Made by a program: the position numbers and the translations under genes
Source of the DNA: a virus
Direction: 5' to 3' (one strand)
Length of the DNA: 64,000 nt
Virus record (IMG/VR): IMGVR_UViG_3300048838_000628
Coordinates: 1-64,000 of that record
Notes under the pieces: generated by a model
Databases searched by the model: none
The model's input: only the letters and a program-made list of their open reading frames with translations
Told to the model about the DNA's origin: nothing
Shown here: in pieces, positions 2,775 through 55,710 of the stretch
Layout of the letters: each line of letters opens with the position of its first letter
Position numbering within the stretch: the stretch's first letter is position 1

Positions 2775-2932
2775 TGGACGAAGTAACTGGTTTGTTGGGC
2801 TGTATTGTTGTGTTCTTGTTTGTACTATTTCGTGTTGCTTTTACGTTTGCTATGTTTCTTTTGTTTCTATGGTTCGTAGTAAACGTTTTTAATGGCAACA
2901 TTTTCAATGTCTTGAACGGACTATTGACATGA
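2774..2932 (+). CDS. 52-residue membrane peptide
   Basis: ATG in a TAATG junction with a GGAGGG ribosome site seven bases upstream, the best of this block. A long hydrophobic stretch runs from about residue 8 to 40 with one Arg at the middle (VLFRVAF), so it may be a hairpin or a single long helix. Ends in an ATGA overlap with the next gene. Function unknown. Confidence 0.55.
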   Translation: MDEVTGLLGCIVVFLFVLFRVAFTFAMFLLFLWFVVNVFNGNIFNVLNGLLT

Positions 2933-3261
2933 GAGATGTTCCAGAAGAAGAACGCCCTTTACGTCTTAAGATATTAAAGCACTTTCGTAGTCTTGGATTT
3001 AAGCTAAACAATAGCTTTCTTGAATCAGATTGCTATTGGAGTGGCTACGATTTTGTGTATTTTGTTAAACCTGTTAACGAAAAGTTTCACGAAGGCATCT
3101 TATATCGTATTCACGTTGTATTTGGTTATGGCCCAAATAAACCACGAATTGTTGGTAAAATTTATTTTGAACGGAACAATAACTTATATGAAATTAGTCG
3201 AGTTGTCCCGCTAGAAGATTATCAAAACATTGTCGCCTATCTTGATGGAGCGAGCGAATGA
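2929..3261 (+). CDS. Hypothetical protein, tandem paralog A1
   Basis: 110 residues, basic-aromatic, probably an alpha-beta fold. It aligns by eye with the next gene: both have a basic N-terminal helix ending R-x-KIL-x-x-FRS-x-GFK, then a Tyr/Phe-rich strand, a Tyr-Arg-Ile strand, a second acidic strand, and a final L-x-x-Y helix. This is best explained by a tandem duplication. Start and end are both ATGA overlaps. Function unknown. Confidence 0.65.
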   Translation: MRDVPEEERPLRLKILKHFRSLGFKLNNSFLESDCYWSGYDFVYFVKPVNEKFHEGILYRIHVVFGYGPNKPRIVGKIYFERNNNLYEISRVVPLEDYQNIVAYLDGASE

Positions 3262-3635
3262 ACAATAAAAAATTATATCGGCCTGAACTTCATTACGAAA
3301 TTGCTGACCGCAAAAAGCGTGCAAAAATTTTATTGTTTTTTCGTTCCAAGGGTTTTAAATTCCCTATTGACAGAAATCTTTGGCGCGATTCGTATAGTGA
3401 TACGGTCTTTCTATTTAAAGAAATTACAGGTGTCAGCTATATTAGTATTAGACTATTTTACTGGAGCGATGGCAATAGTTTCATAAGGTGTGTTGTTGAA
3501 AAAGAAGAACTGTCATTTTCAAGAGATTATAAACTATTACCTTTCGATAACTATGAGGCGATTTACGAACAAATCGAAACTATTCTTTATTTAATGGGCG
3601 AATTCCAAAATCAAATTGATGACGCTTGTTATTAA
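3258..3635 (+). CDS. Hypothetical protein, tandem paralog A2
   Basis: 125 residues. Shares with the preceding gene the segment KILLFFRSKGFK (residues 24-35), the later FLFKE strand, ISIRLFY, and the LLPFDNY helix start, so the two are diverged duplicates. It has a longer C-terminal tail (MGEFQNQIDDACY). The gene after it may be a third, more diverged member. Function unknown. Confidence 0.65.
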   Translation: MNNKKLYRPELHYEIADRKKRAKILLFFRSKGFKFPIDRNLWRDSYSDTVFLFKEITGVSYISIRLFYWSDGNSFIRCVVEKEELSFSRDYKLLPFDNYEAIYEQIETILYLMGEFQNQIDDACY

Positions 3636-3648
3636 AAAGGAATATATA

Positions 3649-3987
3649 ATGATTGATAATAAAATTCTCACATACTTCAAAGCAGATGACTATTTTGAAC
3701 TTTGGAATAACGGGAAGCGTGTTTGTTTTGAAAAATTTACGCACGATGATTATATCATAGTTAATGTTCACTATTTTGCGGAACGAGAAATGTTTAATGT
3801 CAATATTCGCAAAATAACAAATAATGTGGACGGAACACGCTCATTGATGTATAGTGACGAATCTAATTTCGAGATCAATAAGACTTTTGCTTTGAAAGAT
3901 ATTGAGAAGATCGAAGAATATGTAGGTACAATTTCCAATATGATTATGGAATTGCAGAAATGGTCAATGGAGTATAACAATGCCTAG
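3649..3987 (+). CDS. Hypothetical protein, possible third member of family A
   Basis: 112 residues from the ATG at 3649, which has AAAAAGG eight bases upstream; an in-frame ATG at 3616 inside the previous gene lacks such a site. The N-terminus KILTYFKADDYFEL and the strand-rich middle resemble the two genes before it, but the match is weak. Ends with an 8-base overlap with the next gene. Function unknown. Confidence 0.6.
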   Translation: MIDNKILTYFKADDYFELWNNGKRVCFEKFTHDDYIIVNVHYFAEREMFNVNIRKITNNVDGTRSLMYSDESNFEINKTFALKDIEKIEEYVGTISNMIMELQKWSMEYNNA

Positions 3988-4243
3988 AGCCTATTTTTAT
4001 CTAGCGAACGTCGGTAAGTATCATCTGTATGTTTGCGGTGCGTTAGTTGGCGGTTATACAGAAGCAGATAGGAAGTTTCTTGAATTTCACTTAGACACAG
4101 TAAACGGCAAATATCCAATTCGCGAATTTGCAAATAAGAAAGAGTTCTATGATTATGTTCTAGAAGATATGGGTTTTCTATGTGTATCGCCCAATATTAA
4201 ACAAGTCAAAGAGTTCCTTCGTATAACAGAGGACAGGTTATAA
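3980..4243 (+). CDS. Hypothetical small protein
   Basis: 87 residues. An N-terminal strand pair with Gly-Gly (YHLYVCGALVGGY) is followed by helices (ADRKFLEFH, EFYDYVLEDM, IKQVKEFLR). The first part reads like a short domain describing a value and then a helix bundle, but I recognise no family. Stop and next ATG share one base. Confidence 0.6.
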   Translation: MPRAYFYLANVGKYHLYVCGALVGGYTEADRKFLEFHLDTVNGKYPIREFANKKEFYDYVLEDMGFLCVSPNIKQVKEFLRITEDRL

Positions 4244-4506
4244 TGTTCGCAAATTTAGCAAGGATTCAAGAGATGCAGCGCGAAAGTATTCGTGCATTAG
4301 AAGATGATGAGTTTCTTAAAAATAAAGAGCTTTATACCGACACACCTATTGACAGAGTATGGTATGATAGATTTATACTATTCAAACACACATACGCGGA
4401 ATACTTTGCAAGCGTAGGATTAAAGTTTATTGTTTGGGAACATAACGGCCAGTGTTATATAAAGTTTGTGAGGAAAGAAAATGCACCTAACAGTACAAAC
4501 ACTTAA
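4243..4506 (+). CDS. Hypothetical small protein
   Basis: 87 residues. A charged helix (IQEMQRESIRALEDDEFLKNKEL) leads into a Trp/Tyr/Phe-rich half (VWYDRFILFKHTYAEYF) and a short strand pair (KFIVWEHNGQCYIKFV). The 3' end overlaps the next gene by 26 bases; the overlap includes AGGAAAG, the ribosome site of the next gene. No family recognised. Confidence 0.6.
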   Translation: MFANLARIQEMQRESIRALEDDEFLKNKELYTDTPIDRVWYDRFILFKHTYAEYFASVGLKFIVWEHNGQCYIKFVRKENAPNSTNT

Positions 4507-4711
4507 ATCTTCCGGAACTGATGCTGAATTTGAATCTATTAAGCCAACATCTGATTATATGGATGTATGGGACGCCTTCGAAGCTCTCAAAAAGAAATAT
4601 GCTGAAGAAGGTTACGAAAAGCAGTTGGAAATTGATGACTTAGATGTGAAACTTTACTATGCAATTGAACTAGCGACAAATAAAAAGATCATTATTAGTT
4701 TAATCATGTGA
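4481..4711 (+). CDS. Hypothetical small acidic protein
   Basis: 76 residues. Start ATG preceded by GAGGAAAG at a normal distance, inside the previous gene. The middle is a charged helix (DAFEALKKKYAEEGYEK) and the end is a hydrophobic strand (KKIIISLIM). No motif recognised. Confidence 0.6.
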   Translation: MHLTVQTLKSSGTDAEFESIKPTSDYMDVWDAFEALKKKYAEEGYEKQLEIDDLDVKLYYAIELATNKKIIISLIM

Positions 4712-4718
4712 GGCCGTC

Positions 4719-4892
4719 ATGGAAGAAATCTTTTATGTAGAGCGTTGGGGCAATAACATTTATATCATGAAAAATCATCATACTGGCAAATATAATGAAT
4801 ATGATTATTATAAGATCGACGGTAAAAATTATCGTGTCGAAAAGTGCATTACTTACAAAGAATTAAAAAATGCCATCTCACAAAATAGTTAG
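4719..4892 (+). CDS. 57-residue hypothetical protein
   Basis: Short frame with GAGG ahead of the ATG at 4719, eight bases after the previous stop, and a 23-base overlap with the next gene. The sequence is Tyr/Asn-rich (KYNEYDYYKIDGKNYR) with a compact strand-turn-strand look. It fills what would otherwise be a gap in a gapless polycistron. Confidence 0.55.
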   Translation: MEEIFYVERWGNNIYIMKNHHTGKYNEYDYYKIDGKNYRVEKCITYKELKNAISQNS

Positions 4893-5208
4893 TACGGCTA
4901 GTTTTGTACTTTGCGACAATATTGTACAAAAAGATGAATTAGACATAGACCAAATGTTCTGTGGTTTTAATTTTCACTATAACAAATATGGCTATGTGTC
5001 TCGCCAATATGCGCTTACTTTCTTTTTGTCTGGCGATAAACTATCAGATATAACTAAGCAGCAAAAACAAATTGTAGATATTATCAATAGCCAAAACAGA
5101 TTGAGGTACATCTTGGAGTTCGATCTTGTTAATAAACTAACCTTCTCTACTTATGATGCGAGTGAGAGAAAATATACTTATGAACTTTATGAGGTCAACT
5201 CAACTTAG
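4870..5208 (+). CDS. Hypothetical protein
   Basis: 112 residues from an ATG preceded by an A-rich stretch rather than a clear ribosome site. Hydrophobic strands in the first half (IVSTASFVLCDNIV, YALTFFLSGD) are followed by a lysine/glutamine helix and strands. It shares a strand-helix-strand layout with later small proteins but I cannot align it to them. Overlaps the next gene by about 29 bases. Confidence 0.55.
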   Translation: MPSHKIVSTASFVLCDNIVQKDELDIDQMFCGFNFHYNKYGYVSRQYALTFFLSGDKLSDITKQQKQIVDIINSQNRLRYILEFDLVNKLTFSTYDASERKYTYELYEVNST

Positions 5209-5428: not shown

Positions 5429-5957
5429 TTTTCTTAATGCATTCCAAGGAGCAATAGAGTTATTCAAAGTTGATTTTATTGATTATCTTGACCGTCTTGA
5501 TTTAGAGAGCTATGGCGGTGTTTATGGCGAAGGCAGTTTTATGTTTACAAATAAAGCAATAACTCTTATGAACTTCCTTCTTGCCAATAAAGAACGCAAT
5601 GAAATTATGGACAGATATTTACGCATTGACGATGTGCCAAAGAATATTAGTCCTACTGAAGCTTTTTGTTCAGCTTGGTTTATGGTAGAATGTTTGCACC
5701 CTTTGCTTGCAGTTGAGTTTCATAAAGACAAAGAGTATCGTTATCTTAGCAGCTTATTTACTGCTTTGTTAGAGCTGTGCATGTATCTATATAATATCTC
5801 TGATGATTATAGCCGTATGTATAACACAGAGTTTGCTTATTATGAAAAATCTTTTGACGGTATAGTTAGAACCCTAGGAGAAGCAACTATAGAATGGGGA
5901 AATAAAGATTTTGTAGTCCGCGATTACACGATTGGGGGGATTGGTGAGTTGAATTGA
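5409..5957 (+). CDS. Hypothetical helical protein
   Basis: 182 residues from the ATG at 5409, which has AAGGAC about eight bases upstream; the in-frame ATG at 5379 does not. The chain looks mostly helical with aromatic-rich segments (NFLLANKERNEIMDRYLR, ALLELCMYLYNISDDYSRMY). It is longer than its neighbours and more conserved-looking in composition. No family recognised. Confidence 0.65.
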   Translation: MPTYNLDFLNAFQGAIELFKVDFIDYLDRLDLESYGGVYGEGSFMFTNKAITLMNFLLANKERNEIMDRYLRIDDVPKNISPTEAFCSAWFMVECLHPLLAVEFHKDKEYRYLSSLFTALLELCMYLYNISDDYSRMYNTEFAYYEKSFDGIVRTLGEATIEWGNKDFVVRDYTIGGIGELN

Positions 5958-6907
5958 GCAATACCGGATATGTTTGCAACACAAAATACATAGTCGATGA
6001 TGATTTCGATTATGATAATAACAAAGATATAATACAGATAGACGCTACTGGTGTAACTATTACTTATCACAAAGATAAAGACCAATATTTTGCTAGATTC
6101 TTTAAAAAGCATTTATCTGTTTATAGTTGTTATCTCGATGTTATCCCCAGAAGCATTGTTTCCAAGATGCACACTTTACGTCGCGTTAGAATGTTTTGCC
6201 AAGAAATGAGAAAAGCGTTTGAATACGGCGATAAAGAAACAATAGCAAAAATTGCTACATTGGCTTTAACATCAAACAAAACTAAAAAACTGTTTATCAT
6301 TAAAACCGCCAAATTCACGGAGCTATCTTATGGACTTCGTTATTTTCCAGATGACGATTTGACTTATAACCACACGATAAGAAATTTTATTAAAGAGATA
6401 AAGAAACACAATATACACAAGAAATATCATACAGAGTTTATTTTTAGTAAAAACAAACCAAATCATATTAGATACATATATAAAATATACTTCTCTAAAC
6501 AACTCTCTGTTAAAATTATCTTTAATATTTCTATGAATGTTACGGTATCATATAAAGACGTAGAAGAAAATCGTGTTATGGTAAGATTTGGCGTTAGAGG
6601 TTTTGAAATAGCCGGTAGCTTTAAACATCTTTATACGGATAATCTGCCAAAACAAAAAGAGATATTTGATATTATCTTGGGTCTTATAGATAAGCTAGAA
6701 GCGCCAGACAACGGACGCATTAAAGAATATATAGCCAAGTATCCAAATTTATCAGATAAATTAAAAAGAAATATTTTAGTGCTTGACAACAGCAACACTC
6801 TGTTGTACAATGCTAGTCGGTGGTTCGAGCTGACAAAAACAAAGACAGCAAATACAAAAGAAGATCACAAATTTTACATGGGTTTATTAGATTTATTATT
6901 GGCCTAG
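5954..6907 (+). CDS. Hypothetical basic protein, TTG start
   Basis: 317 residues, lysine-rich. The TTG at 5954 overlaps the previous stop (TTGA) and follows GGTGAG; no ATG occurs near the N-terminus in frame. An acidic N-terminal stretch (VDDDFDYDNNKD) precedes a strongly basic middle (IKEIKKHNIHKKYH, KNKPNH). The basic character allows nucleic-acid binding, but this is inference only. Its 3' end contains a near-consensus promoter. Confidence 0.6.
   Translation: MSNTGYVCNTKYIVDDDFDYDNNKDIIQIDATGVTITYHKDKDQYFARFFKKHLSVYSCYLDVIPRSIVSKMHTLRRVRMFCQEMRKAFEYGDKETIAKIATLALTSNKTKKLFIIKTAKFTELSYGLRYFPDDDLTYNHTIRNFIKEIKKHNIHKKYHTEFIFSKNKPNHIRYIYKIYFSKQLSVKIIFNISMNVTVSYKDVEENRVMVRFGVRGFEIAGSFKHLYTDNLPKQKEIFDIILGLIDKLEAPDNGRIKEYIAKYPNLSDKLKRNILVLDNSNTLLYNASRWFELTKTKTANTKEDHKFYMGLLDLLLA
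6783..6811 (+). promoter_or_regulatory. Strong sigma70-type promoter for leader RNA and nuclease
   Basis: TTGACA at 6783-6788, 17-base spacer, TACAAT at 6806-6811. It lies in the end of the preceding gene, so transcription would begin near 6818 and give a leader of about 257 bases before the nuclease gene at 7075. The hexamers and spacing are identical to those of the promoter at 8260-8288. Confidence 0.65.
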
Positions 6908-6909
6908 CC

Positions 6910-7050
6910 ATTCAGTTTACCGGTTAATCTGATTCGGCGTATGCCAAGACACGAGGTGAGTTATAGCGGTTTAATTGACCGTGCAGTATAGCTAAAGGAC
7001 TTGAACTCTGATTAAGCTAACTGTAATAACAACTTCAAAACCGGAAATTA
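6910..7050 (+). ncRNA. Predicted structured leader RNA or small RNA
   Basis: The 167-base gap holds nested complementary segments. A closing stem pairs 6916-6925 with 7039-7047 (CCGGTT with AACCGG plus TTT with AAA around one bulged A). Inside it, CGGT at 6967-6970 pairs with ACCG at 6978-6981, and CAGT-TAGCT at 6984-6993 pairs with AGCTA-ACTG at 7015-7023, nine pairs with one bulge. A multibranched RNA of about 130 bases downstream of a strong promoter fits a riboswitch-like leader or a phage small RNA. It lacks a T-arm, so it is not a tRNA. No known RNA family is recognised. Confidence 0.45.
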
Positions 7051-7074
7051 TTATTTAGTATTAGAAAATTAAAA

Positions 7075-7947
7075 ATGATAAAACGATCAAGAACTGAAGC
7101 TGGTTTAGTTGCTCTGATTAAAGAAAATTTAGAATATGTAGAGGAGTCGAATAGAAAAGGCAGACTCTACGCTGGCGATAATGTGTGTCATCGTATGAAC
7201 GCTATTCTTTCACAGAACAAATCGACAGTGAAGATAGAATCTACGATGATACCTTACACCGAAGTTGGTATTGCTATGGAAAAGCTTATTATTCGTGCTT
7301 TAAATAAAGGTGGTGTATTTGTTGCCAATGATGTGCGAATACCAGAACTTGAAGGTATACCTATGGGCGGTAAAATTGACGCTATTATTTGGTGGCGTGA
7401 TCGTCCTGTTATTGTAGAAGTAAAAACTGCCAGTAACACGATTGTCAAAGAGAAACATCGTATTCAAGCCATGACTTATTCTATGTTTACCGGTCTTGAT
7501 TACATCATTCTTTATATCAATCGCAGTATTGGCAAGCCTAATTTTGGTAAGCTAACTTTAGATACAGAAGCACATTATTTTGCTTACAGCGAAGATGAAA
7601 GTCTAGAGTTATTTAAAAATGTCTGTAAAGCCGCTTATTCAAGCACTACTGGCCTATTGGATAATACAGACATACCATATAATAAAACAGCGTGTAAGAG
7701 CTTCTACTGCCCTTTTATTGGGTACTGTCATGAAGGAAAGAAACTGGCCGATTTTAAATCAATGCCGAAATCAGAATATAAGAAATACAATGCTTTTATA
7801 GAAGAAAAAACACAGTGGTTTATAGATAACAAGTTGGCTATCTATACCGCCTTCTGTGAAAACTTGAACGCCAAAAAGATTGCGAATAAAAAGAACCGCA
7901 AGACAGTGTTAGAGTATTATGAAAAAGTTTTTGGCGTCAGTACTTAA
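7075..7947 (+). CDS. Cas4/RecB-like PD-(D/E)XK nuclease with iron-sulphur cysteines
   Basis: 290 residues. The core of a PD-(D/E)XK exonuclease is visible: E69 in the first helix, D102 in GGKIDAI, E115-x-K117 in VIVEVKTA, and the RecB-family Q131-x-x-x-Y135. Four cysteines sit where Cas4 and AddB bind a 4Fe-4S cluster: C38 near the N-terminus and C207, C212 and C218 near the C-terminus. Related phage proteins act as DNA end-processing exonucleases in recombination or replication. It is the first gene after the structured leader and overlaps the GIY-YIG gene by 29 bases. No CRISPR array is present, so a spacer-acquisition role is not suggested. Confidence 0.8.
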   Translation: MIKRSRTEAGLVALIKENLEYVEESNRKGRLYAGDNVCHRMNAILSQNKSTVKIESTMIPYTEVGIAMEKLIIRALNKGGVFVANDVRIPELEGIPMGGKIDAIIWWRDRPVIVEVKTASNTIVKEKHRIQAMTYSMFTGLDYIILYINRSIGKPNFGKLTLDTEAHYFAYSEDESLELFKNVCKAAYSSTTGLLDNTDIPYNKTACKSFYCPFIGYCHEGKKLADFKSMPKSEYKKYNAFIEEKTQWFIDNKLAIYTAFCENLNAKKIANKKNRKTVLEYYEKVFGVST

Positions 7948-8248
7948 ATTTATTTTCTTTTTATTCGGTTATCGTATTGAAAAATTTAGGTGGTGTTATG
8001 TATATTTGATACGAGAAGATAAAACAGGCCGACCGCTTTATGTTGGTAAAACCTGTAGATGCGTTGATAAAAGATTTAAAGAACATATATCAGAACGCTA
8101 TAGTAACCAAAAAGTATATAACGCATCTAAAAGAACTAAGTTGGAAGTTATTATACTTAAAAGAACAACAGAGGAGAAAGTATACGACGAAGAACAAAAA
8201 TATATTAAACTATATAAGCAGAAGTTCCGTATGTACAATAAGACATAA
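7919..8248 (+). CDS. GIY-YIG endonuclease, small
   Basis: 109 residues. The GIY-YIG core is present as VYL (28-30) and YVGKT (41-45), followed by R52, E55-H56, a conserved acidic residue in YDEEQKYI (about 91) and a final Asn (107). A hydrophobic N-terminal segment (residues 4-18) is unusual and could anchor it or be a start-site artefact. There is no DNA-binding module beyond the catalytic domain, so it may be a free-standing homing or repair-type nuclease. It overlaps the preceding gene by 29 bases. Confidence 0.7.
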   Translation: MKKFLASVLKFIFFLFGYRIEKFRWCYVYLIREDKTGRPLYVGKTCRCVDKRFKEHISERYSNQKVYNASKRTKLEVIILKRTTEEKVYDEEQKYIKLYKQKFRMYNKT

Positions 8249-8259
8249 AGATTTTGCAC

Positions 8260-8288
8260 TTGACAGCTCGTTCGGGTTGTGCTACAAT
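8260..8288 (+). promoter_or_regulatory. Strong intergenic sigma70 promoter for the MoxR/VWA operon
   Basis: TTGACA at 8260-8265, 17-base spacer, TACAAT at 8283-8288. It is the only such promoter that sits in a true intergenic gap of this arm. A 5' leader of about 54 bases ends in AAAGGAAAA, the ribosome site of the AAA+ gene at 8349. Confidence 0.75.
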
Positions 8289-8348: not shown

Positions 8349-9800
8349 ATGCCTACTATGACACAAACTATTGCAACGGTTTCTTCGCCTATGTTTACTA
8401 GCGTTTGTAAAGTTAAAGGCAATAAGATTGTACCAAGTAAACCAATTACTCATACTTTTGAAATCAACGGAGTAGAAACAGAAAAAACATATACTGATTT
8501 TGACTTTAACCCTTCACGCCTTGATACAGACGGCCAACCGCTAGTTGAAGGCGAATCATATGTAATGTCATTTACGTTTAAAAATATTGGCAGCGCTGTT
8601 ATTCACAGCGCAATGAAGCATATCCCTAGCCGTAAAAGCTATGTCATTTCGACTGTGCCTGCAACAACGCAGGAAGTTAATAAGATGCATGGTAGCCTAT
8701 CAGAATATTATGACGAACATAAAGTAAAGCACGATAGCACAAAGCTTTATGACGAACTTTCTGGTTATGTTCGTAAAAATGTTCTTGTTTGGCACGGTGA
8801 TGACTTTTCGTGCATTGATTTGACTAATCGCATGGGTAAAGGCGTTTTGTCTAACATCAAAGAAGATATTACACTTGCCGATTATAATCAACTAAAGTCT
8901 GTTGACATTGTTGTTAAGCAAGAAGAACAGACTGAGGCTGGCGGATATTTCTTCAGCGATAAAGAAAAGAAAATTTTGAAGTATATCTCTTATAACGAAG
9001 AAATTCGTAGTGAAACTCCTGATGCAGATGGTCAAATTATCCGTGTAAGATTCACAGGCCCTACTGGTAGCGGCAAGTCTGCATTTGCTGAAGCGTTGGC
9101 AAAGTGGCTTGGTTGGAATTATCATAAAGTTGACATGGAAACGCTTGTTGAAGCAACTGATATTTATGGTCTTAAAGAATTGGTCAATGGCGAAACTGTA
9201 TTTGAGTGGTCAGATTTCACTAAGGCTATTCAGTCAGATGACAATTGGGTAATTCTACTTGACGAAACTACACGAGCTGGTCGTGAAGTAATTAACGGCG
9301 TTCTTGGTTTGCTTGACGGCTCACAGACTGTTCGTGTTCAAGATCAGTTGATCAAGGTTAACACTCGTGGCACTAAGATTATTATTGCCAGTGAGAATAT
9401 TGGTCGTGAATATGGCGGTCTTAAGACGATTGATAAGGCGTTTTCTAATCGTTTTGAGTTCGTTATTGACAAAACTTATTCACCGGAAGTTGAAAAGGCA
9501 TTGTTGTTTAACGCAATTAAAGAAATTGGTCACCCTAAATTTAACAACAATGTTATGAGCAAGATGCAGAAGGCAATTAGTGAAATTCGTGCAAGAGGTG
9601 CCGAGATTGGCGTTAACGACGGTAGTATTTTCTCAACACGTACTCTCGTTAATATCATTAAACACCTTAAGACTTGGGCGCATACCGAAGAAAGCGTAAA
9701 CGAAGCGGTTATGCTAGCTTTTGATTTTGCTTATATCGCTGCACTTGATGCCACACTTGCTAAGGCTTGTGAAGATATTCTTCGTTCACATTTCAATTAA
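8349..9800 (+). CDS. MoxR/CobS-like AAA+ ATPase
   Basis: 483 residues. The AAA+ module has Walker A GPTGSGKS at 237-244, Walker B VILLDE at 301-306, a sensor-1 segment IIIASEN ending at 350 and an SNRF arginine finger near 368. The first 230 residues are a phage-specific region with no motif I recognise. MoxR-type ATPases (RavA, CbbQ, NorQ, CobS) work as hexameric remodelling machines with a VWA-domain partner encoded next door, and that partner follows ten bases downstream. Codons look enriched in GGC, CGT and AAG relative to nearby genes, which together with the strong promoter suggests high expression. The substrate is unknown. Confidence 0.8.
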   Translation: MPTMTQTIATVSSPMFTSVCKVKGNKIVPSKPITHTFEINGVETEKTYTDFDFNPSRLDTDGQPLVEGESYVMSFTFKNIGSAVIHSAMKHIPSRKSYVISTVPATTQEVNKMHGSLSEYYDEHKVKHDSTKLYDELSGYVRKNVLVWHGDDFSCIDLTNRMGKGVLSNIKEDITLADYNQLKSVDIVVKQEEQTEAGGYFFSDKEKKILKYISYNEEIRSETPDADGQIIRVRFTGPTGSGKSAFAEALAKWLGWNYHKVDMETLVEATDIYGLKELVNGETVFEWSDFTKAIQSDDNWVILLDETTRAGREVINGVLGLLDGSQTVRVQDQLIKVNTRGTKIIIASENIGREYGGLKTIDKAFSNRFEFVIDKTYSPEVEKALLFNAIKEIGHPKFNNNVMSKMQKAISEIRARGAEIGVNDGSIFSTRTLVNIIKHLKTWAHTEESVNEAVMLAFDFAYIAALDATLAKACEDILRSHFN

Positions 9801-9809
9801 GGAACAACA

Positions 9810-11849
9810 ATGACAGATATACTTGAAATCATTGGCCGGTCGGTTGGTGCTAAAGATGTTAACGATTTCTATGTTAACAACCTGCTAAATTATCGTTACG
9901 GTACAAGACGATATGGTTGGGGGGATAATGGCACACCGACTAATTTTCGTGAACTAAGAACTTATATCAGAGATAGCGGTTTTCGTTATGCCCATGGTTT
10001 ACATAAGCCGCTGCACGTATCTTTCCGTAGCGATGTTGATACTGCCTGTATCATGTATAAACAAAAAGAGGATGCGTTTGAGATTCAAATTGGAACAGTA
10101 TTTCTTACACCAGAATTTTATCAAGAATGCGCTAAAGCAGCTGGTCTACCATACATAGAAAGCAATGCAATTATTGTTGCGCTTGCTATTGTTAACTACA
10201 TGGTATATCATGAGACTTTGCATCAGCGTTATACTGACCTAAGCTCAATGATTAATTTTGGCAAATTTATTATTGATATGACAGATCGCAAATATCATAA
10301 TGAGCTGTTTCAGCAAATTCTCAACTATCTTGAAGATTTGTTTATTGAGCATCGTGTCTTGAAAGTTGAGCGCGAATGGTTATCGGGTCTGATTGGTGAT
10401 TGGCAAAAGTTCTTTTTTAGTCTTGAATCGCTAGAACTTCAAGAAGATGAACAATTCACCGTTCAGAAATACATGGAGTATGCTCGTGGCTGGTTTGGTG
10501 TAAATAAGCCGCAACTTTTGGGCAATACGCCAGAGCCAGCCATGGCAGTTATTGATTATATCCAAAACCATACGCATCTTTTTACTGACACATTTGATCG
10601 CGTTTATATGGCAATGGATATTTATGATTTCTTTGAGGAATCAGAAGAACCGAATATCCAACAGCAGATGCAACAAGCTGCTGAAAGTATTGATGATTAT
10701 GAGAAAGGCGTAGAACAATCGTCACGAGAGATTGTAAATGGTGGGAATTCTTCAAATTCTGAAGAACGTAGCGGTATGTCTAAAGAACTTGAAGAACTAG
10801 CTAATCAAATTAAACAGGCTGCTGCAAATGGTGATGAGGCAGCAAAACAAATTATTAATGCTGCGGATAATGTCTTGCGGGAACTTAGAGACATTAAACA
10901 AATGGAGGAAACACGGACGCCTTTTGATTATAGCGGATATACTCCACCGCAATATTATAACGACGGCACTATTAAATACTACGACGTGCTTGAGATTGGC
11001 AAAACTATTGACTTTACTCCGGTAGAAAAAACCAATTGGCTTGATGCGTTTAAAAACGAAATCAAACAGTTTATGGTTAAAGCGCCGGACGAAAAAGTAG
11101 TTAGCCGTCGTGGTCGGCTTGATGCTAGTCGCCTTTATATGCATCGTTTTGCTGGTTCTATTCTGCGTACACAAAAAGTAGAACGTGATGATAAAGGCGA
11201 GCCAAACGTAATTGTTCTTATGGACGTTTCTGGTTCTACTAGCGGACGTGCCGTTAATGCCGACGGTAATTGGCGAGACGATGAGGCCACAATTTTTAAC
11301 TTTATCACGACTGGCGGATATTTTATTCACAAGTCGCTCTCAAGCGTTGGTATTTCACACAGCATTTACGCCCATACAGTTGGTCGTGGTGCTGGTGCTG
11401 AAATTATCGGCGTAGCGGCTTTTGAAAATGTTCTCAATCCAGTTAGTAAAAAGATTGTGACGACTCCAACTTCTAGTGCGGAGGTTCGCTTTTCTTATCT
11501 AAATGCCGTATATATGGGCGGCAATGCTGATGGTGCAGCTTTGGATTTTGTTACAGAAGCCGCTATTGACAAATCCAAGGAAAACCTTATAATTGTAGTT
11601 AGTGATGGCGCTCCAACCGAAACTGTTGGAAAAACTAAAATGTCTCCAGAAGAACATCTGGTGAGTATTATCAACAAACTTCGGACAGACGGCCATTACG
11701 TAGTTGCCATGACAGTAGTCAATAACAAGGAGGTTATTCAAGCAAACGATAGGATTTATGGTGCTGCAAATAATATTGTGGCATATGATAACAGAACTTT
11801 TATTCAAAGTGTTCGTAGGGTGATTGATAATCTGCTGGATAACAAGTAA
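9810..11849 (+). CDS. CobT-like protein with HExxH and VWA domains
   Basis: 679 residues. An HETLH motif at 134-138 with a downstream acidic helix (LNYLEDLFIEHRVL, 171-184) resembles the metallopeptidase-like N-terminus of DUF2201 proteins. A low-complexity acidic and glutamine-rich linker (about 275-370) follows. The C-terminal VWA domain has MIDAS residues DVSGS at 472-476 and a later VVSDG (596-600); the usual MIDAS Thr position reads GGNADG (570-575), so metal binding may be altered. It is the predicted partner of the AAA+ protein upstream. In phages this pair is often labelled CobS/CobT, although no cobalamin pathway is present here. Confidence 0.75.
   Translation: MTDILEIIGRSVGAKDVNDFYVNNLLNYRYGTRRYGWGDNGTPTNFRELRTYIRDSGFRYAHGLHKPLHVSFRSDVDTACIMYKQKEDAFEIQIGTVFLTPEFYQECAKAAGLPYIESNAIIVALAIVNYMVYHETLHQRYTDLSSMINFGKFIIDMTDRKYHNELFQQILNYLEDLFIEHRVLKVEREWLSGLIGDWQKFFFSLESLELQEDEQFTVQKYMEYARGWFGVNKPQLLGNTPEPAMAVIDYIQNHTHLFTDTFDRVYMAMDIYDFFEESEEPNIQQQMQQAAESIDDYEKGVEQSSREIVNGGNSSNSEERSGMSKELEELANQIKQAAANGDEAAKQIINAADNVLRELRDIKQMEETRTPFDYSGYTPPQYYNDGTIKYYDVLEIGKTIDFTPVEKTNWLDAFKNEIKQFMVKAPDEKVVSRRGRLDASRLYMHRFAGSILRTQKVERDDKGEPNVIVLMDVSGSTSGRAVNADGNWRDDEATIFNFITTGGYFIHKSLSSVGISHSIYAHTVGRGAGAEIIGVAAFENVLNPVSKKIVTTPTSSAEVRFSYLNAVYMGGNADGAALDFVTEAAIDKSKENLIIVVSDGAPTETVGKTKMSPEEHLVSIINKLRTDGHYVVAMTVVNNKEVIQANDRIYGAANNIVAYDNRTFIQSVRRVIDNLLDNK
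11566..11593 (+). promoter_or_regulatory. Candidate internal sigma70 promoter
   Basis: TTGACA at 11566-11571, 16-base spacer, TATAAT at 11588-11593. Both hexamers match consensus fully. It lies in the last third of the VWA gene and would give extra transcription of the small gene and SSB candidate downstream. Confidence 0.5.
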
Positions 11850-13093: not shown

Positions 13094-13462
13094 ATGAGCA
13101 GCAGTTTTACAGAGCTTGATCTTTACAGCTATAAAAGATGGCGCATGACATATTATATCAAGCAAACAGAGATCGATCTATTAACTGGCACAGTTATTAT
13201 TCATTGTGTAGTTTATCAAGACGACGATCAAAAAGAACGTTTTGTTAAATTAGAAATCAAGCACAGAAAAGAAGGATTAGTATATACGTTTGTAGATCAT
13301 TTAACTACATATGCACCATTGCTCAGGGCTTATCTAAATAGCAGTAATATAGTTAGGGTGTTATATGAAATACACGATTATATTATAGATCACCAAAACG
13401 ATATAAGCGCTGATCGTTTTAAGCGTTATGATGATTTCTTAAAGAGAATGATCTATGAATGA
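13094..13462 (+). CDS. Hypothetical protein, tandem array B, member 1
   Basis: 122 residues with GGAGGAAAT before the ATG. Strands in the first 70 residues (IIHCVVYQDD, RFVKLEIKHRKEG) and a helical end KRYDDFLKRMIYE. The same architecture, with a final R-Y-x-FL-x-x-x-(I/L)-Y-(G/E) signature, recurs in the following genes, so this is the first of a set of diverged duplicates. First gene after the terminator, so it needs readthrough or a promoter I cannot see. Function unknown. Confidence 0.65.
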   Translation: MSSSFTELDLYSYKRWRMTYYIKQTEIDLLTGTVIIHCVVYQDDDQKERFVKLEIKHRKEGLVYTFVDHLTTYAPLLRAYLNSSNIVRVLYEIHDYIIDHQNDISADRFKRYDDFLKRMIYE

Positions 13463-13853
13463 ATATGATGTTCTGTTATATGAATCCGGTGCTAATTGCT
13501 TTATAATCAATATTGAGATTGTTACTTTACAAGAAGGCACTATTATTTTTGATGGTCGCATGGAGGACATATTAGATACTTGGAATGTTAACATTTGTTT
13601 GTCACATGAAAAAGATTCTAAAAAATTTACTGTTAGTCTCGTCTATGTACAAAACGATGAAAGACTTTACAAAGATTTTCTTGGTTATAAAAAAGGTTTT
13701 TGTAAAACTATTATGGACGACCGCGACTTTCTTCTTACTTTGCCTTTACTATTTAAATCTTATTTAGATAAAATGGCAGCAGAAGAATATAGTGACTACC
13801 CAACTTATTATGATGAAAGATATGAATTTTTACATAACTTAATCTATGGGTGA
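13455..13853 (+). CDS. Hypothetical protein, tandem array B, member 2
   Basis: 132 residues. Strands (CFIINIEIVTLQEGTIIF, VNICLSHEKD, FTVSLVYV) then helices and the ending RYEFLHNLIYG, which matches RYEFLNKILHG of the next gene almost position for position. That match is the clearest evidence of duplication in this array. Overlaps the previous gene by 8 bases. Confidence 0.65.
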   Translation: MNEYDVLLYESGANCFIINIEIVTLQEGTIIFDGRMEDILDTWNVNICLSHEKDSKKFTVSLVYVQNDERLYKDFLGYKKGFCKTIMDDRDFLLTLPLLFKSYLDKMAAEEYSDYPTYYDERYEFLHNLIYG

Positions 13854-13857
13854 CACA

Positions 13858-14238
13858 ATGGGACAATATAAAATATATCAATATCTCGGTGTTAGCATAA
13901 GTTTAAATTTAGCACATACATATTTAGAAAACAACGAGAATGAATTTCACATATCATGTATTGTTGTGGCTGATACAGAGAAGTTTTATACTGTTGAGCT
14001 GATTATTAGAAGGCACACAGACGCAATTGAAATAACTTTTGGCGAAGCAGAACTATCTCCTAGTCATTTGTTTATATGCGAAAGCGTGTTGAACAAATAT
14101 TTGACATCAATGGATTTGTCAACTCTAGTCTTGAAGATCAAAAATTTCTTCGATGAAGAATCGCAATTTGACTATTATGAATACGAACACTACTATCAGC
14201 CTAGATATGAATTTCTAAATAAAATACTCCATGGATAA
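13858..14238 (+). CDS. Hypothetical protein, tandem array B, member 3
   Basis: 126 residues from the ATG at 13858, which has GGGTGA five bases upstream; an in-frame ATG at 13846 lies inside the previous gene's YG codons. Strands FHISCIVVAD and YTVELIIRRH are followed by helices and an acidic Tyr-rich segment before RYEFLNKILHG. Paralog of the gene before it. Function unknown. Confidence 0.65.
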   Translation: MGQYKIYQYLGVSISLNLAHTYLENNENEFHISCIVVADTEKFYTVELIIRRHTDAIEITFGEAELSPSHLFICESVLNKYLTSMDLSTLVLKIKNFFDEESQFDYYEYEHYYQPRYEFLNKILHG

Positions 14239-14241
14239 GTT

Positions 14242-14577
14242 ATGAGACACAACATATTAGTTGCTAACGCTAAACAACTCTATCTATATGATGACGAAAT
14301 AGAATGTACAATGCGTAAATACATATGTGCTACATTATACATTGACGGTCTTTCTAAAGTCACTATAAGCTATCGCTATAGAGACAAAGAACATCTTGAA
14401 ATAAAATACGATTTTACTGATAATTGTGGGTCATATTATAAAGACGTTATTGATGTAGTTCAAATAGATGTTGTGGCAATCGGTATGCTTAAAACAATTT
14501 ATATCGAACTAAGAAAACATTTTATAAGAGCCGATGTGCAATCAACTATAGAGAGAATGTTATATGAAAAAGTTTAA
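14242..14577 (+). CDS. Hypothetical protein, tandem array B, member 4
   Basis: 111 residues, with GGATAAG before the ATG at the end of the previous gene. Two central strands (KYICATLYIDG, KVTISYRYRD) and a C-terminal helix ending TIERMLYEKV, comparable with the FLKRMIYE end of member 1. Overlaps the next gene by 14 bases. Confidence 0.6.
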   Translation: MRHNILVANAKQLYLYDDEIECTMRKYICATLYIDGLSKVTISYRYRDKEHLEIKYDFTDNCGSYYKDVIDVVQIDVVAIGMLKTIYIELRKHFIRADVQSTIERMLYEKV

Positions 14578-14941
14578 TAATTATGAACTCTATAAAAAAG
14601 AAAACCACCGTATAGCCTTACATCTACATAGAGCAAGTTTGCACTCAGGTCATCATATAGTTATCCCAACAACAGTTTATATTAATGATGTCGGATTTAT
14701 AGTTTATTTATTCTTATATTTCAAAGCCAATATTATAAGATTCTCTTTTGAGAATACAGATAAAACGGTTGAAGAATATTTTTATCTTTTTCAGGATTTT
14801 CTTGACGAAATAATGCAAGATAAAAACTTATTATTTGAGGTTATTAAAGCCCTGAAAGAATATAAAGAACACAAAACTTTTGAACCAAAAATATCACCAG
14901 ACATTTCTAAATTTTTTGATATTTGGCTATATGCTGGATAA
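14564..14941 (+). CDS. Hypothetical protein, tandem array B, member 5
   Basis: 125 residues, histidine-rich near the N-terminus (HRIALHLHRASLHSGHH). A hydrophobic strand (GFIVYLFLYFKAN) stands where the other members have their second strand, and the chain ends FFDIWLYAG. A more diverged member of the same family. Function unknown. Confidence 0.6.
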   Translation: MKKFNNYELYKKENHRIALHLHRASLHSGHHIVIPTTVYINDVGFIVYLFLYFKANIIRFSFENTDKTVEEYFYLFQDFLDEIMQDKNLLFEVIKALKEYKEHKTFEPKISPDISKFFDIWLYAG

Positions 14942-14945
14942 CATC

Positions 14946-15344
14946 ATGCAAACTTATTATACAGTGTGTAAACATCGCGCATTTCATGTTATTATCTATT
15001 ATAAAGACGTGATAGAACGCAAATTTTTTCCTGATTCAAAATATGCAACTTTTATAAGAGTGTTTATAAACAGGTCTATGCCAGAAATAGAGGAGATTAA
15101 TGGAGTTTTAAAAATCATTAAAATAGATCAAAATTCTCTTGTTATTGAAATGGGCGGCTTTGGCTTAACTGGCAGCGATTTCGAACCACCATCTGCTGAA
15201 TTAGTTGCTTATATTCAAAACGAGCTTGATAAATTTATGAATAATAGCGAACGGTTGTTGGAGTTTTTTAAAGAACTATACGCTTATTCTATGTTGTTTA
15301 ACAATCGTGAATTAGCTAGAGATTTGGAGGCGCTACTATATTAG
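14946..15344 (+). CDS. Hypothetical protein, tandem array B, member 6
   Basis: 132 residues from the ATG at 14946, preceded by CTGGATA; ATGs at 14931 and further up lie inside the previous gene. Strands (HVIIYYKDV, FIRVFINRS, LVIEMGGFG) and a helical end LARDLEALLY. Its 3' end carries the GGAGG ribosome site of the next gene. Confidence 0.6.
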   Translation: MQTYYTVCKHRAFHVIIYYKDVIERKFFPDSKYATFIRVFINRSMPEIEEINGVLKIIKIDQNSLVIEMGGFGLTGSDFEPPSAELVAYIQNELDKFMNNSERLLEFFKELYAYSMLFNNRELARDLEALLY

Positions 15345-15718
15345 CTCAAGATCAATTTTATGACATTATAGACAACGTGTATATCCATTCCTATGCTGAT
15401 TTTAGTAGTATATGCGCATATGAATATGATAAAAGTCTTAATTTTTTTATACGGGTTAGAACCACCAGAGGCAATGAGTCAATATTAATAAGCATCAGGT
15501 TTAATCATGGGGAGATTTTATACGACATACATTCTGACGATAATGTTTTAATAGGGTTCTTGATCGATCTTTTATCAACAGACAACAACGCTTTTGATTT
15601 AGTACGTAGCGCTTGTGATTATGCGCTTGGTAGGCCAGATATTCCTTATGCCGTTGAATTAGCCAATTTAATCTTATATGGAGAGAACAATGAAACTGAT
15701 ACAAAAGAAGCAAAATAA
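15338..15718 (+). CDS. Hypothetical protein, array B member 7, apparent AUA start
   Basis: GGAGG at 15326-15330 is followed, seven bases on, by an in-frame ATA at 15338; the frame has no ATG, GTG or TTG before a GTG at 15377 that lacks any ribosome site. From ATA the protein is 126 residues, the length of its paralogs, and overlaps the previous stop as neighbours do. Strands FFIRVRTTRG and ILISIRFNHG and the end LANLILYG fit the family. A GTG start at 15377 giving 113 residues is the alternative. Confidence 0.5.
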   Translation: MLAQDQFYDIIDNVYIHSYADFSSICAYEYDKSLNFFIRVRTTRGNESILISIRFNHGEILYDIHSDDNVLIGFLIDLLSTDNNAFDLVRSACDYALGRPDIPYAVELANLILYGENNETDTKEAK

Positions 15719-16139
15719 AACTGCTCGTTATTATTTTGATGTTGAAGAAGACGATGGTATTGTAAACAGCTATTGGATAAACAAAGATGTTCGTGTATAC
15801 GATACAGGGCATGATACAGTTAAAATTTCAACAGGGATTTATACTATTCTACCAGATAATAAACGAGCAAATATTTGGTTTATGTCTTTAGTGCTTGAAA
15901 TTAACCATGACAAGATTGATGTGACTGCTGAATCGTCATGGGACACATACGGTGACAAGATGCGTTTTGCAGAAGGATTTTTGCCATTAGTAACAGACGA
16001 CTTTCTTAGAAAATATTTAATGTCTAAAATTGAGTTTGACAAAAAGCAAGATGTCTATTATGCTAATACGTATAGTAGACTAATTTGGAATTACATCGAG
16101 CCGAAAGAAGAAGAAGATGGCGTGGAGGGTACATCGTAA
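15690..16139 (+). CDS. Hypothetical protein, array B member 8
   Basis: 149 residues from the ATG at 15690, which has GGAGAG five bases upstream; the in-frame ATG at 15678 overlaps those ribosome-site bases. Strands (RYYFDVEEDD, WFMSLVLEINH, KIDVTAESSW) and later helices. It keeps the general layout of the array but has a longer acidic tail (EPKEEEDGVEGTS) and no Y-G ending, so membership is tentative. Confidence 0.55.
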   Translation: MKLIQKKQNKTARYYFDVEEDDGIVNSYWINKDVRVYDTGHDTVKISTGIYTILPDNKRANIWFMSLVLEINHDKIDVTAESSWDTYGDKMRFAEGFLPLVTDDFLRKYLMSKIEFDKKQDVYYANTYSRLIWNYIEPKEEEDGVEGTS

Positions 16140-16512
16140 AGATAAAAACCAGAATGAGATAGTTTACGTACTTGACAAACTTGGGCTTTCAGTGTACGAT
16201 TTATCTCAAGTGGGCGGCGGTATGGCAGATATTATCGTCGCCTACAACGGTATTAACTTTCTCTTTGAAATCAAAACAGAGAAAGGTAGATTAAACGCAA
16301 CGCAAAAAGAATTTCACAGTAAATGGCAAGGTAGTATAGCTGTTATCAAATCTCCTTATGACGCTATAGCTTGTTTGAAACTATACTTTAACTCTAAGCG
16401 GTTTGATAGATTATCTGACAAGTGGATTGAGAATATACCAAAGCTGCAAGAGGAATATCATGTTACAAAACCCAAACGTCCAGTCAAAAAACGAAAAATT
16501 TCCAAGAGTTGA
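16117..16512 (+). CDS. VRR-NUC-like PD-(D/E)XK nuclease
   Basis: 131 residues. The core pattern of small phage VRR-NUC or Holliday-junction-resolvase-like nucleases is visible: GGGMAD with D38, then E51-x-K53 in FEIKTEKG, Q63 in ATQKEFHSKW, and the hydrophobic segment SIAVIKSPYDAI. A lysine-rich tail (KPKRPVKKRK) may bind DNA. Such proteins cleave branched DNA during recombination or packaging. It overlaps the genes on both sides and sits inside a run of unknown small proteins. Confidence 0.7.
   Translation: MAWRVHRKDKNQNEIVYVLDKLGLSVYDLSQVGGGMADIIVAYNGINFLFEIKTEKGRLNATQKEFHSKWQGSIAVIKSPYDAIACLKLYFNSKRFDRLSDKWIENIPKLQEEYHVTKPKRPVKKRKISKS
16172..16200 (+). promoter_or_regulatory. Candidate internal sigma70 promoter
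   Basis: TTGACA at 16172-16177, 17-base spacer, TACGAT at 16195-16200, inside the VRR-NUC-like gene. It would serve the duplicated genes and possibly the polymerase operon downstream. Confidence 0.45.
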
Positions 16513-16891
16513 GTGTATTATATCTCATATGTATGTTAGAGCAGAAGCTCAAAATTTTGTATACTTTGCAGCTTACAAGATTATTTTCGAGAAGTTTAGC
16601 TTTGTAATTAAAATTCGCAAACTTGTTCGCACAACCGACGATTTGATCTATGAAGTGAAATTTGCTACTTCCGATAATGACAGCAAACACTTGTTTGGCC
16701 ATAATGCCGGTGAATTTAAAATTGGCGAAACTATTTGTACTTTTGAAACACCTTATATTGATTACGCTAAATTTTATCAACCAACTGATGAAAGCGAATT
16801 TGAGCGCACGGTTCTAAATTGTATATCGGGAGTAGTATTTACTAAGCTCCTTGAACGCATTATCACTAAAGAAGAATTGAGGTATATGTGA
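16460..16891 (+). CDS. Hypothetical protein, 143 residues
   Basis: Start ATG at 16460 is chosen because AAGAGGA lies just upstream; an in-frame ATG at 16403 has none. It overlaps the nuclease gene by 53 bases. Strand-rich first half (FVYFAAYKIIFEKFSFVIKIRK) and a helical end VFTKLLERIITKEELRYM, whose LLERII recalls the ends of the array B proteins. Relation to array B is possible but weak. Confidence 0.6.
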   Translation: MLQNPNVQSKNEKFPRVECIISHMYVRAEAQNFVYFAAYKIIFEKFSFVIKIRKLVRTTDDLIYEVKFATSDNDSKHLFGHNAGEFKIGETICTFETPYIDYAKFYQPTDESEFERTVLNCISGVVFTKLLERIITKEELRYM

Positions 16892-17262
16892 ACTCGTTAG
16901 AATATATGGGAATTAAAAAACTAACCGTTGGCAAAATTGCATATAATTTTCATACTTATAAATCAACATCTAATAACATCGGGACTCTATATTTTTTATA
17001 TCTCGAATCTATGAAAAGAGTTTACCTTACTAAATATCTTGCTGAAACAACTCTGAAGCTATTTGATTTTAGTATTGATTTTGAAGAAGCAGAACATAAC
17101 CAAATTAAAATTATATATTCATATGACGAAGGCAGGGTTGGCAAAGAACACAGACTTGAAAATATAGATAGTTATGAATATTGCAAGCGGATTATAGCTA
17201 ATGAGTTAGGCGTTACAATATTCCTGCGTCTTGTAGATGATGGAATTATGCAATGGTTTTAA
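16888..17262 (+). CDS. Hypothetical protein, tandem paralog C1
   Basis: 124 residues from a GTG overlapping the previous stop (GTGA). It aligns with the next gene: LYFLYLESMKRVYLTKY here against LYFFYKKEMKRFYTTKY there, followed in both by DFSID or DFIID, a YSYDEG or YKYNEG strand, and LRLVD near the end. This is a clear tandem duplication. Function unknown. Confidence 0.65.
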   Translation: MNSLEYMGIKKLTVGKIAYNFHTYKSTSNNIGTLYFLYLESMKRVYLTKYLAETTLKLFDFSIDFEEAEHNQIKIIYSYDEGRVGKEHRLENIDSYEYCKRIIANELGVTIFLRLVDDGIMQWF

Positions 17263-17624
17263 AATGTGTTGGTGAGAGACAGTTGTTAATTGGTGCTAGT
17301 CCTAAAGAAATAAAATATCTCGTATTTGTATTTAAGACAGACACTACTAGCGAAGTTGATCTTTATTTTTTCTATAAAAAGGAAATGAAAAGATTTTATA
17401 CTACAAAATATATTAATCGTCCAAGAACTTTGTTATATGATTTTATAATAGACGTGAATAAATACGATAATGGCTTAATTGAAGTTGTTTATAAATATAA
17501 CGAGGGGCTTGTTCCGCCTGCTTATATACACACCGCATTTGACCACATATTTTTTGAATCATATATCAACGCTAAAATTGGACTTCGTTTGGTAGATTTA
17601 TTACTACAAGAAAACGCATTATGA
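17253..17624 (+). CDS. Hypothetical protein, tandem paralog C2
   Basis: 123 residues, duplicate of the gene before it (shared MKR-x-Y-x-TKY, D-F-x-ID, Y-x-Y-x-EG-x-V and LRLVD segments). It overlaps that gene by ten bases and ends with an ATGA overlap into the next. The conserved basic MKRxYxTKY strand is the most likely functional surface. No family recognised. Confidence 0.65.
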   Translation: MVLKCVGERQLLIGASPKEIKYLVFVFKTDTTSEVDLYFFYKKEMKRFYTTKYINRPRTLLYDFIIDVNKYDNGLIEVVYKYNEGLVPPAYIHTAFDHIFFESYINAKIGLRLVDLLLQENAL

Positions 17625-18004
17625 AATACGATGTACTTATACGTAATGATGTTAACGAAGGTACAGTAAAAACAAAATCGCTTTATATGATTTATGCCGC
17701 GTCTCTTGGTTTTATATTAGAGCTTAAAGAACACGATACAAAAAATTTTCCAATTAATAGAATTGATGGTGTTTGGACACATAAATATTTTGATGCAAGA
17801 TTTGCCCATAATATTTTAAGTTATCATGCGCAGGTAATGGTTAACGCATATTCTAAAATTTATGCAACTGAAAACGGTATTGAGCAATATCTGTTTTGCG
17901 GTGATGAAAGAATAGGCGGCTTAGATAAGTTTGTAATTGAAGCAATTAACACAGAAGAATTTCTACACGTTATAGAAAGAATCATATTCGATGATTACAG
18001 CTAG
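17621..18004 (+). CDS. Hypothetical protein, 127 residues
   Basis: ATGA start. Strand-rich first half, a histidine-containing middle (THKYFDARFAHNILSYHAQV) and a C-terminal EFLHVIERIIFDDYS helix comparable with the ends of array B and of the 143-residue gene upstream. Function unknown. Confidence 0.6.
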   Translation: MKYDVLIRNDVNEGTVKTKSLYMIYAASLGFILELKEHDTKNFPINRIDGVWTHKYFDARFAHNILSYHAQVMVNAYSKIYATENGIEQYLFCGDERIGGLDKFVIEAINTEEFLHVIERIIFDDYS

Positions 18005-18302
18005 ATTTATAGTAGATGTTAAGAATAAAAAACAGAAACATATTTATTATTTAGAAAAAATAGCTGACAACGAAAAAGATAATATTTATATCTATGAAGT
18101 TAGACACAACAAAACGTTATTTGGGCACGTATGGGTAGATATGCAAGACCCAGATGAGATAAAAATATACACACAATATACAGAGAGCAAAGAACGCTTT
18201 GCTTATTGTGACTATTTCAAAGAAGCTTTTGGCACATTGACAACCGAAAAGCTTTATGCTATGTTTAGACCAGATATTGTGAAGGGCGGAGATCGTGTCT
18301 GA
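17991..18302 (+). CDS. Hypothetical protein, 103 residues
   Basis: Starts 14 bases inside the previous gene. Strands (ARFIVDVKNKKQKHIYYLEKI, NIYIYEVRHNK, GHVWVDMQD, IKIYTQYTES) suggest a small beta domain. A candidate promoter sits in its 3' end. No motif recognised. Confidence 0.6.
   Translation: MITARFIVDVKNKKQKHIYYLEKIADNEKDNIYIYEVRHNKTLFGHVWVDMQDPDEIKIYTQYTESKERFAYCDYFKEAFGTLTTEKLYAMFRPDIVKGGDRV
18237..18265 (+). promoter_or_regulatory. Candidate internal sigma70 promoter
   Basis: TTGACA at 18237-18242, 17-base spacer, TATGTT at 18260-18265. It would transcribe the family D genes and run on into the DNA polymerase gene. The -10 deviates at two positions. Confidence 0.35.
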
Positions 18303-18699
18303 CAACTATATTAAGATTTTTAAGAACGGGAAGTATGTATATATCTATAGATTTATACTTGGCACGAGAACAACTAACGGTGATATAGGCGATTTTATTG
18401 AATATAAAGTGTATGTCAAAAAGAAAAATATGGAGAGCCTGTTTGTAACAACAGAGTTTTATATTGGCACATTGGGTGTGTATCAAGAAAATTTAGATAA
18501 TCGAATTCTAGATACAGAAAGAGGCAGGATAAGTTTACAGATTAAACTAACTGACAATAAACAGTATGAATTACCGGTTAGTTTGTTGCTAGACTATTTA
18601 AACCACTCTAGTGAAGAATTTCATCAGTTTGTTGTTCGACTTGTTTCTGAAGTTATTGAAATCATAAACAAAGATTTATTACATGAACAAAATAAATGA
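18295..18699 (+). CDS. Hypothetical protein, possible family D member
   Basis: 134 residues from a GTG with GGGCGGAG upstream. Strands in the first half (YVYIYRFILGTR, FIEYKVYVKKK) resemble FIVYSLDQ and LIEYHISIGYD of the gene at 19482, so it may be a distant member of the same family. Ends in 17 bases of overlap with the next gene. Confidence 0.6.
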   Translation: MSDNYIKIFKNGKYVYIYRFILGTRTTNGDIGDFIEYKVYVKKKNMESLFVTTEFYIGTLGVYQENLDNRILDTERGRISLQIKLTDNKQYELPVSLLLDYLNHSSEEFHQFVVRLVSEVIEIINKDLLHEQNK

Positions 18700-19102
18700 G
18701 TTTATAAACCATGAACGGTTTGTTTCTATTATGTCTCTAAGCAACGATGCTTTTGGATTGGGTTGCGAATTGCTTATTATATTTAACTCTGACCCATATG
18801 GAGAGAAGTGGCCGTTTAATAAATTCTTTGCCATTAACATACCAAATAGACTGTTAGTGTATATGTGCCCATTTGAAGTACAAATAAATAACGATTATTC
18901 CACTTCTATTGTTTATGACCCTGCGATATTTTATACAATGACCTATAATCCTTATTCTAGTTTAGAGGGCATAGAATTCAATTCTGCAATTGACGGAGTA
19001 CTTGAATCGCTCCCTAATTATATTAGCACTCTGGCCGACGATGTATCTAGTTATCTTATAAGCACAAGCGAAAGATATGATATATGGTCATCCATACGCT
19101 AA
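18683..19102 (+). CDS. Hypothetical protein, tandem paralog D1
   Basis: 139 residues. The C-terminal helix LISTSERYDIWSSIR corresponds to IIDTENAYREWLKR and ILSTEKEYREWLTR in the next two genes. As in those genes, the Trp codon near the end supplies the ATG of the following gene (ATATGG). Function unknown. Confidence 0.6.
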   Translation: MNKINEFINHERFVSIMSLSNDAFGLGCELLIIFNSDPYGEKWPFNKFFAINIPNRLLVYMCPFEVQINNDYSTSIVYDPAIFYTMTYNPYSSLEGIEFNSAIDGVLESLPNYISTLADDVSSYLISTSERYDIWSSIR

Positions 19103-19497
19103 TAACAGATCACAGATTTTTTAGAGGTTTAAATAAAGAAATCAACTGGTTTGATGAAGCTTATGAATTTCTTATTAACTACGATACTGATTATGTACCC
19201 AATAAACTGTTTAACGTGTACAATAAAGATACAGATATAGAGTATGGCATTTTGCGCTTTACGGTTAATATTAAAGACGACATAACAACAATAGAATTCG
19301 ATCTAGACTATATAGAAGAACTTATACATATTCCAACTAAAGCTGATAAAAATTATTATTCAGAAGTAATGGCTGATATACGAAATCAAATAGTTGAAAC
19401 CTATTTAGCATCACCTTATTCAAGCGAAGAATCTGAAGAAATCTACGGCTTTATTATAGATACCGAAAACGCTTATAGAGAATGGCTAAAACGATGA
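19084..19497 (+). CDS. Hypothetical protein, tandem paralog D2
   Basis: 137 residues, very acidic. It starts at an ATG created inside the Trp codon region of the previous gene. The C-terminus EIYGFIIDTENAYREWLKR pairs with VYDFILSTEKEYREWLTR of the next gene. Strands and an FDLDYIEEL segment in the middle. Function unknown. Confidence 0.6.
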   Translation: MVIHTLITDHRFFRGLNKEINWFDEAYEFLINYDTDYVPNKLFNVYNKDTDIEYGILRFTVNIKDDITTIEFDLDYIEELIHIPTKADKNYYSEVMADIRNQIVETYLASPYSSEESEEIYGFIIDTENAYREWLKR

Positions 19498-55677: not shown

Positions 55678-55710
55678 AATTTCCTCCTTTTAGACCGGGG
55701 CTTCTTGATT

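Follow-up and report, generated by a model that had tools for sequence, protein, structure and literature searches.

Gene layout and the nuclease locus

The DNA analysed here, referred to below as the window, comprises bases 1-64,000 of an 82,023-base virus record (an 82-kb contig) from a virus of bacteria, that is, a phage. Genes lie on the plus strand up to ~32.3 kb and mostly on the minus strand from 32.4 kb onward, and the plus-strand part encodes a DNA polymerase III alpha-like protein, a DnaB-like helicase, the thymidylate synthase ThyX and a CobS/CobT-like pair. The window is very compact, with most genes overlapping. Small overlapping genes of 90-150 amino acids form long runs at 2929-5208 and 13094-19931, and by eye these resemble repeated duplicates of a few unknown families. 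Two GIY-YIG homing-endonuclease-like ORFs are found on the plus strand (7919-8248 and 30637-31419), and free-standing HNH-like genes occur at 61999-62580 of the window and at 1019-1666 of the contig's end piece, L002 (contig 63001-82023), on the downstream side of the terminase gene. The gene for the terminase large subunit itself (L002 1663-3882, minus strand) has an apparent intein interruption.

The locus of interest, all on the plus strand, begins with an ORF at 5954-6907 that has no family match, followed by an untranslated gap of 167 nt (6908-7074), a nuclease gene (7075-7947) and the first of the GIY-YIG ORFs, which overlaps the end of the nuclease gene. Genes for a CobS-like AAA ATPase and then a CobT-like VWA protein follow at 8349-11849. 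An earlier note on this DNA had called the nuclease Cas4/RecB-like, and profile matches support this identity, placing the protein among PD-(D/E)XK nucleases (PHROG 1706, E 2e-17; Pfam PDDEXK_1, E 8.6e-5, above its cut-off). Against the NCBIfam equivalog TIGR00372 cas4 it scores 22 bits, below the cut-off of 65, so that "Cas4-like" is a correct description and "Cas4" is not.

Six-frame translation and the ORF list place no open frame of note in the gap at 6908-7074, and the gap is indeed the longest in the window, as the earlier note had it, since the larger apparent gaps left by a mechanical gene call are coding or continuous with an ORF. The 257-base apparent gap at 2121-2377 is occupied by overlapping small ORFs and that at 16140-16402 by an ORF of 131 amino acids, while the one at 55504-55710 is continuous with its downstream ORF (54625-55503, minus strand), which is open further upstream and apparently starts at an ATT at ~55680 just after AAGGAGG.

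A recurring promoter and the predicted leader of the nuclease transcript

A sigma-70-type promoter, TTGACA-17-TACAAT, lies on the plus strand at 6783-6811 (exactly TTGACAACAGCAACACTCTGTTGTACAAT), inside the 3' part of the upstream ORF. Its hexamers are near consensus for -35 and -10 boxes, their spacing is 17 bp, and their occurrence is beyond chance: the window contains 2 instances of the exact pattern TTGACA-N17-TACAAT, where chance predicts 0.04. The second match is a twin at 8260-8288 (plus strand), ahead of the AAA ATPase gene at 8349, and a pattern scan of the rest of the contig adds one exact and one single-mismatch copy (L002 12988 and 15973, plus strand), so that the contig as a whole has three exact copies and a near one. 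Each of the four closely precedes a gene and lies on the plus strand. Given this recurrence, the promoter proposed in the earlier note is better supported than had been claimed, and the sequence makes a convincing case that the predicted promoter ahead of the nuclease gene is real. The family can be written as GCTTGACA/CACTTGACA-N17-TACAAT(/TACACT), and three of its four members carry GTTCG 10-20 bases past the -10 box.

The four copies differ in their surroundings. In two of the other three, the TGA stop of the upstream ORF falls inside TTGACA; at 6783, the upstream ORF continues for ~40 codons through the promoter. The codon score of this putative coding tail is low, though not outside what real C-termini show, 12% of which score equally low. 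A nine-codon leucine-rich frame, MGLLDLLLA (6879-6907, plus strand; four TTA and one TTG codons), lies between promoter and gap; it is in frame with the upstream ORF and could be merely the C-terminus of that ORF. The contig encodes a tRNA-Leu(UAA), one of four tRNA genes (Leu-UAA, Thr-UGU, Gln-UUG and Ile-UAU) at L002 13367-17231 on the plus strand, where there is also a degenerate tRNA-like stretch (~17105-17158) that ARAGORN does not call.

Downstream, the genes behind the other three promoters start within ~30-60 bases, and each has a Shine-Dalgarno sequence (AAAGGA for the gene at 8349, GAGGAG at contig ~76045 and AGAGGA at contig ~79036). Placing the start of transcription from the -10 box, the nuclease transcript would instead carry a 5' leader of ~257 nt (6818-7074, plus strand). 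Between the promoter and the nuclease gene no intrinsic terminator is predicted, and the leader contains no run of more than four T. The start of the nuclease gene at 7075 has no Shine-Dalgarno, the predicted anti-Shine-Dalgarno pairing being +0.2 kcal/mol. In longer folds the AUG sits within an A/U hairpin (7046-7079, plus strand) that would cover the start codon and lies beside the branched element described below. This hairpin is weak (-3.1 kcal/mol, z -1.1) and the accessibility of the start region is average for the genome (16th of 37), which makes occlusion of the start codon no more than a possibility.

The predicted branched fold, chance and relatives

Both nine-pair stems and the small hairpin that the earlier note had drawn appear in the minimum free energy (MFE) fold of the gap, at the positions it had given them on the plus strand. 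The closing stem, P1, pairs 6916-6925 (TTTACCGGTT) with 7039-7047 (AACCGGAAA) in nine pairs with one bulged A. Within it, a two-part stem absent from the earlier note, P3 (6953-7036; GAGGU/ACUUC and GUUAU/AUAAC), closes a three-way junction from which extend the hairpin P4 (6966-6982, previously 6967-6981, CGGTTTAATTGACCG) and the arm P5 (6983-7024), which holds the second nine-pair stem (6984-6993, CAGTATAGCT, with 7015-7023, AGCTAACTG; one bulged A). Across all transcript contexts folded, the predicted pairing probability of the inner stems stays at 0.95 or higher, with P3 at 0.95-0.98 throughout; P1 reaches 0.93-1.0 in most contexts and falls to 0.16 when 6818-7074 is folded.

Measured against controls, the fold exceeds chance only borderline. 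The gap has an energy z of -2.0, with 7 of 200 shuffles as good, and the segment 6911-7049, whose ends were picked to fit the fold, a z of -2.6 (3/200); the value for the gap region spans -2.0 to -2.7 according to the chosen ends, and for the leader at 6818-7080 it is -0.94, which is not significant. Strand preference likewise depends on the ends: one choice gives -2.6 for the plus strand against -0.5 for the minus strand, the ends 6911-7060 give -2.04 against -1.81, and the preference is therefore not robust. The architecture, defined as a closing stem of at least 9 pairs that spans 90 bases or more and encloses a second stem of this kind, arose in 38 of 1000 dinucleotide shuffles, and 43 of 1000 had equal or lower energy. 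In a comparison with the virus's own sequence that corrected for dinucleotide content by regression, 96 of 3195 plus-strand windows (~3%) were more stable for their composition. The earlier argument against a chance origin of such nested pairs does not hold up, as about 4% of shuffles match the architecture or the energy and about 3% of same-genome windows are as stable for their composition. These figures agree with the caution of Rivas (PMC8250186) that a structure predicted from a single sequence does not count as evidence for a functional one.

The observation that no known RNA class is recognised stands: no Rfam family matches the window at its gathering score, and around the gap nothing rises above chance at E values up to 10. 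ARAGORN calls neither a tRNA nor a tmRNA anywhere in the window, and within the gap the Rfam tRNA model is likewise negative. A hammerhead and a group I intron were considered and dropped after inspection by eye. A covariance model built from the gap found no second copy on the contig.

No usable relative of the gap or the nuclease was found in GenBank phages, plasmids, IMG/VR or GTDB genomes, nor any homologue of the neighbouring AAA ATPase gene near enough for an alignment of the leader. A distant blastn of 1 kb against phages yielded no DNA relatives, blastn of the gap against phages and plasmids returned only short A/T-rich chance matches, and pattern scans of IMG/VR with a 22-mer and an 18-mer had no match. 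At the protein level, IMG/VR gave no relatives of the nuclease, the AAA ATPase or the DNA polymerase III alpha, and GTDB genomes none of the nuclease or the AAA ATPase. The nearest lead is a terminase at 50% identity on an 11-kb fragment that lacks the nuclease. Such scans work through exact eight-residue matches or short words and could have overlooked relatives at 50-65% identity, and the lack of covariation evidence weighs neither way. In GenBank phages the AAA ATPase (8349) has only distant relatives, with less than 31% identity over half of the protein or less.

Possible roles of the leader and comparison with known systems

The best-supported chain of events runs from the promoter through a long leader to a nuclease mRNA. 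From a phage promoter of host sigma-70 type, transcription would start at ~6818 and give an mRNA with an unusually long 5' leader, followed by the Cas4-like nuclease gene and then the GIY-YIG ORF. The 3' half of the leader may fold into a compact branched element, just 3' of which the nuclease start codon, without a Shine-Dalgarno, would sit in the weak A/U hairpin. The intrinsic level of initiation would then be low, and RNA processing or a protein, perhaps the nuclease, could adjust it. A role in translation, exerted in cis, is the most natural reading, since the gene has no Shine-Dalgarno and its AUG is predicted to fall in an A/U hairpin next to the branched element.

We tentatively propose, with somewhat less than even confidence, that the gap belongs to such a cis-acting structured leader of the nuclease mRNA, and we consider it about equally likely to be an incidental spacer. 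The recurring promoter hexamers argue for the cis-acting leader, as does the combination of a Shine-Dalgarno and a short leader at the other three led genes, neither of which the gene at 7075 has. So do the presence of the longest untranslated gap in a compact window, the inner stems, which persist in all contexts, and a fold energy below the shuffled mean. The same fold can be read as an ordinary untranslated spacer, transcribed from a real promoter as part of the leader but functionless in its shape, with nested stems of this kind arising by chance in a few of every hundred sequences of 167 bases; this reading, too, falls somewhat short of an even chance. The shuffle counts for architecture and energy, the composition-corrected plus-strand windows, the z of the whole leader and the missing paralogue on the contig all favour a spacer, as does the caution cited above (PMC8250186). 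It is harder to reconcile with a gap that is the longest in a genome of mostly overlapping genes, and with a led nuclease gene that lacks a Shine-Dalgarno. Conversely, the cis-acting leader must contend with the shuffles and own-genome windows that do as well, the insignificant whole-leader energy, the fragile strand preference, the average accessibility of the start codon and the failure to find a relative that could supply covariation.

Two further readings are considerably less probable. Decayed sequence, either former coding DNA extending the frame of the ORF at 5954-6907 or a degenerate tRNA, is improbable: that frame has the best codon score of the six, and the contig has tRNAs and a degenerate tRNA-like stretch elsewhere, but its 0.09 bits per codon (shuffled -0.08, sd 0.11; real genes 0.30, sd 0.11) is ~2 sd under real genes, several stops interrupt the frame, and both tRNA searches of the gap were negative. 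Readthrough or coding continuation of the upstream ORF was rejected for the same weak and unconvincing codon signal. A trans-acting phage small RNA, processed or terminated from the 6783 promoter, would account for the gap's own promoter and compact fold; it becomes very unlikely given the absence of an intrinsic terminator ahead of the nuclease gene, and the lack of long T runs in the leader and a fold that stops ~28 bases ahead of a same-strand ORF also speak against it. An attenuator with a terminator was set aside, there being no terminator and no U-run.

Beyond the cis-acting leader as such, we regard it as unlikely, if conceivable, that the element represents a previously undescribed class of structured leader RNA that controls translation of a Cas4-like nuclease from a start without a Shine-Dalgarno, in a lineage for which no close relative was found, with MGLLDLLLA possibly serving as a leader peptide. 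Should the fold prove real and regulatory, the phage would have a new cis-acting RNA ahead of a nuclease with a possible part in processing viral or host DNA. A fold of one sequence that 3-4% of controls equal is not enough to establish a functional RNA, and the solid result is the recurring promoter of a little-known phage lineage.

Among known systems, the riboswitch and other cis-regulatory RNA families of Rfam 15 resemble the present leader in being branched and of similar size ahead of a gene, and they differ in that the leader matches none at gathering score, nor above chance when E values up to 10 are admitted. The autogenous translational operators of phage replication and recombination genes, such as those of gene 32 in T4 and RB69, are similar in that structured mRNA precedes a phage gene of DNA metabolism whose translation start could be protein-controlled; in T4 and RB69 the gene's own product binds and represses, as shown in assays (PMC535899), whereas such control is only hypothetical for the leader described here, which has no relative in the collections searched. 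Ordinary sigma-70-type phage promoters with 5' leaders share with this locus a coding-strand TTGACA-17-TACAAT arrangement, one that recurs along the contig. Compared with the other three promoters of this contig, the one at 6783 leads a gene without a Shine-Dalgarno, through a leader of ~257 nt rather than ~30-60 nt.
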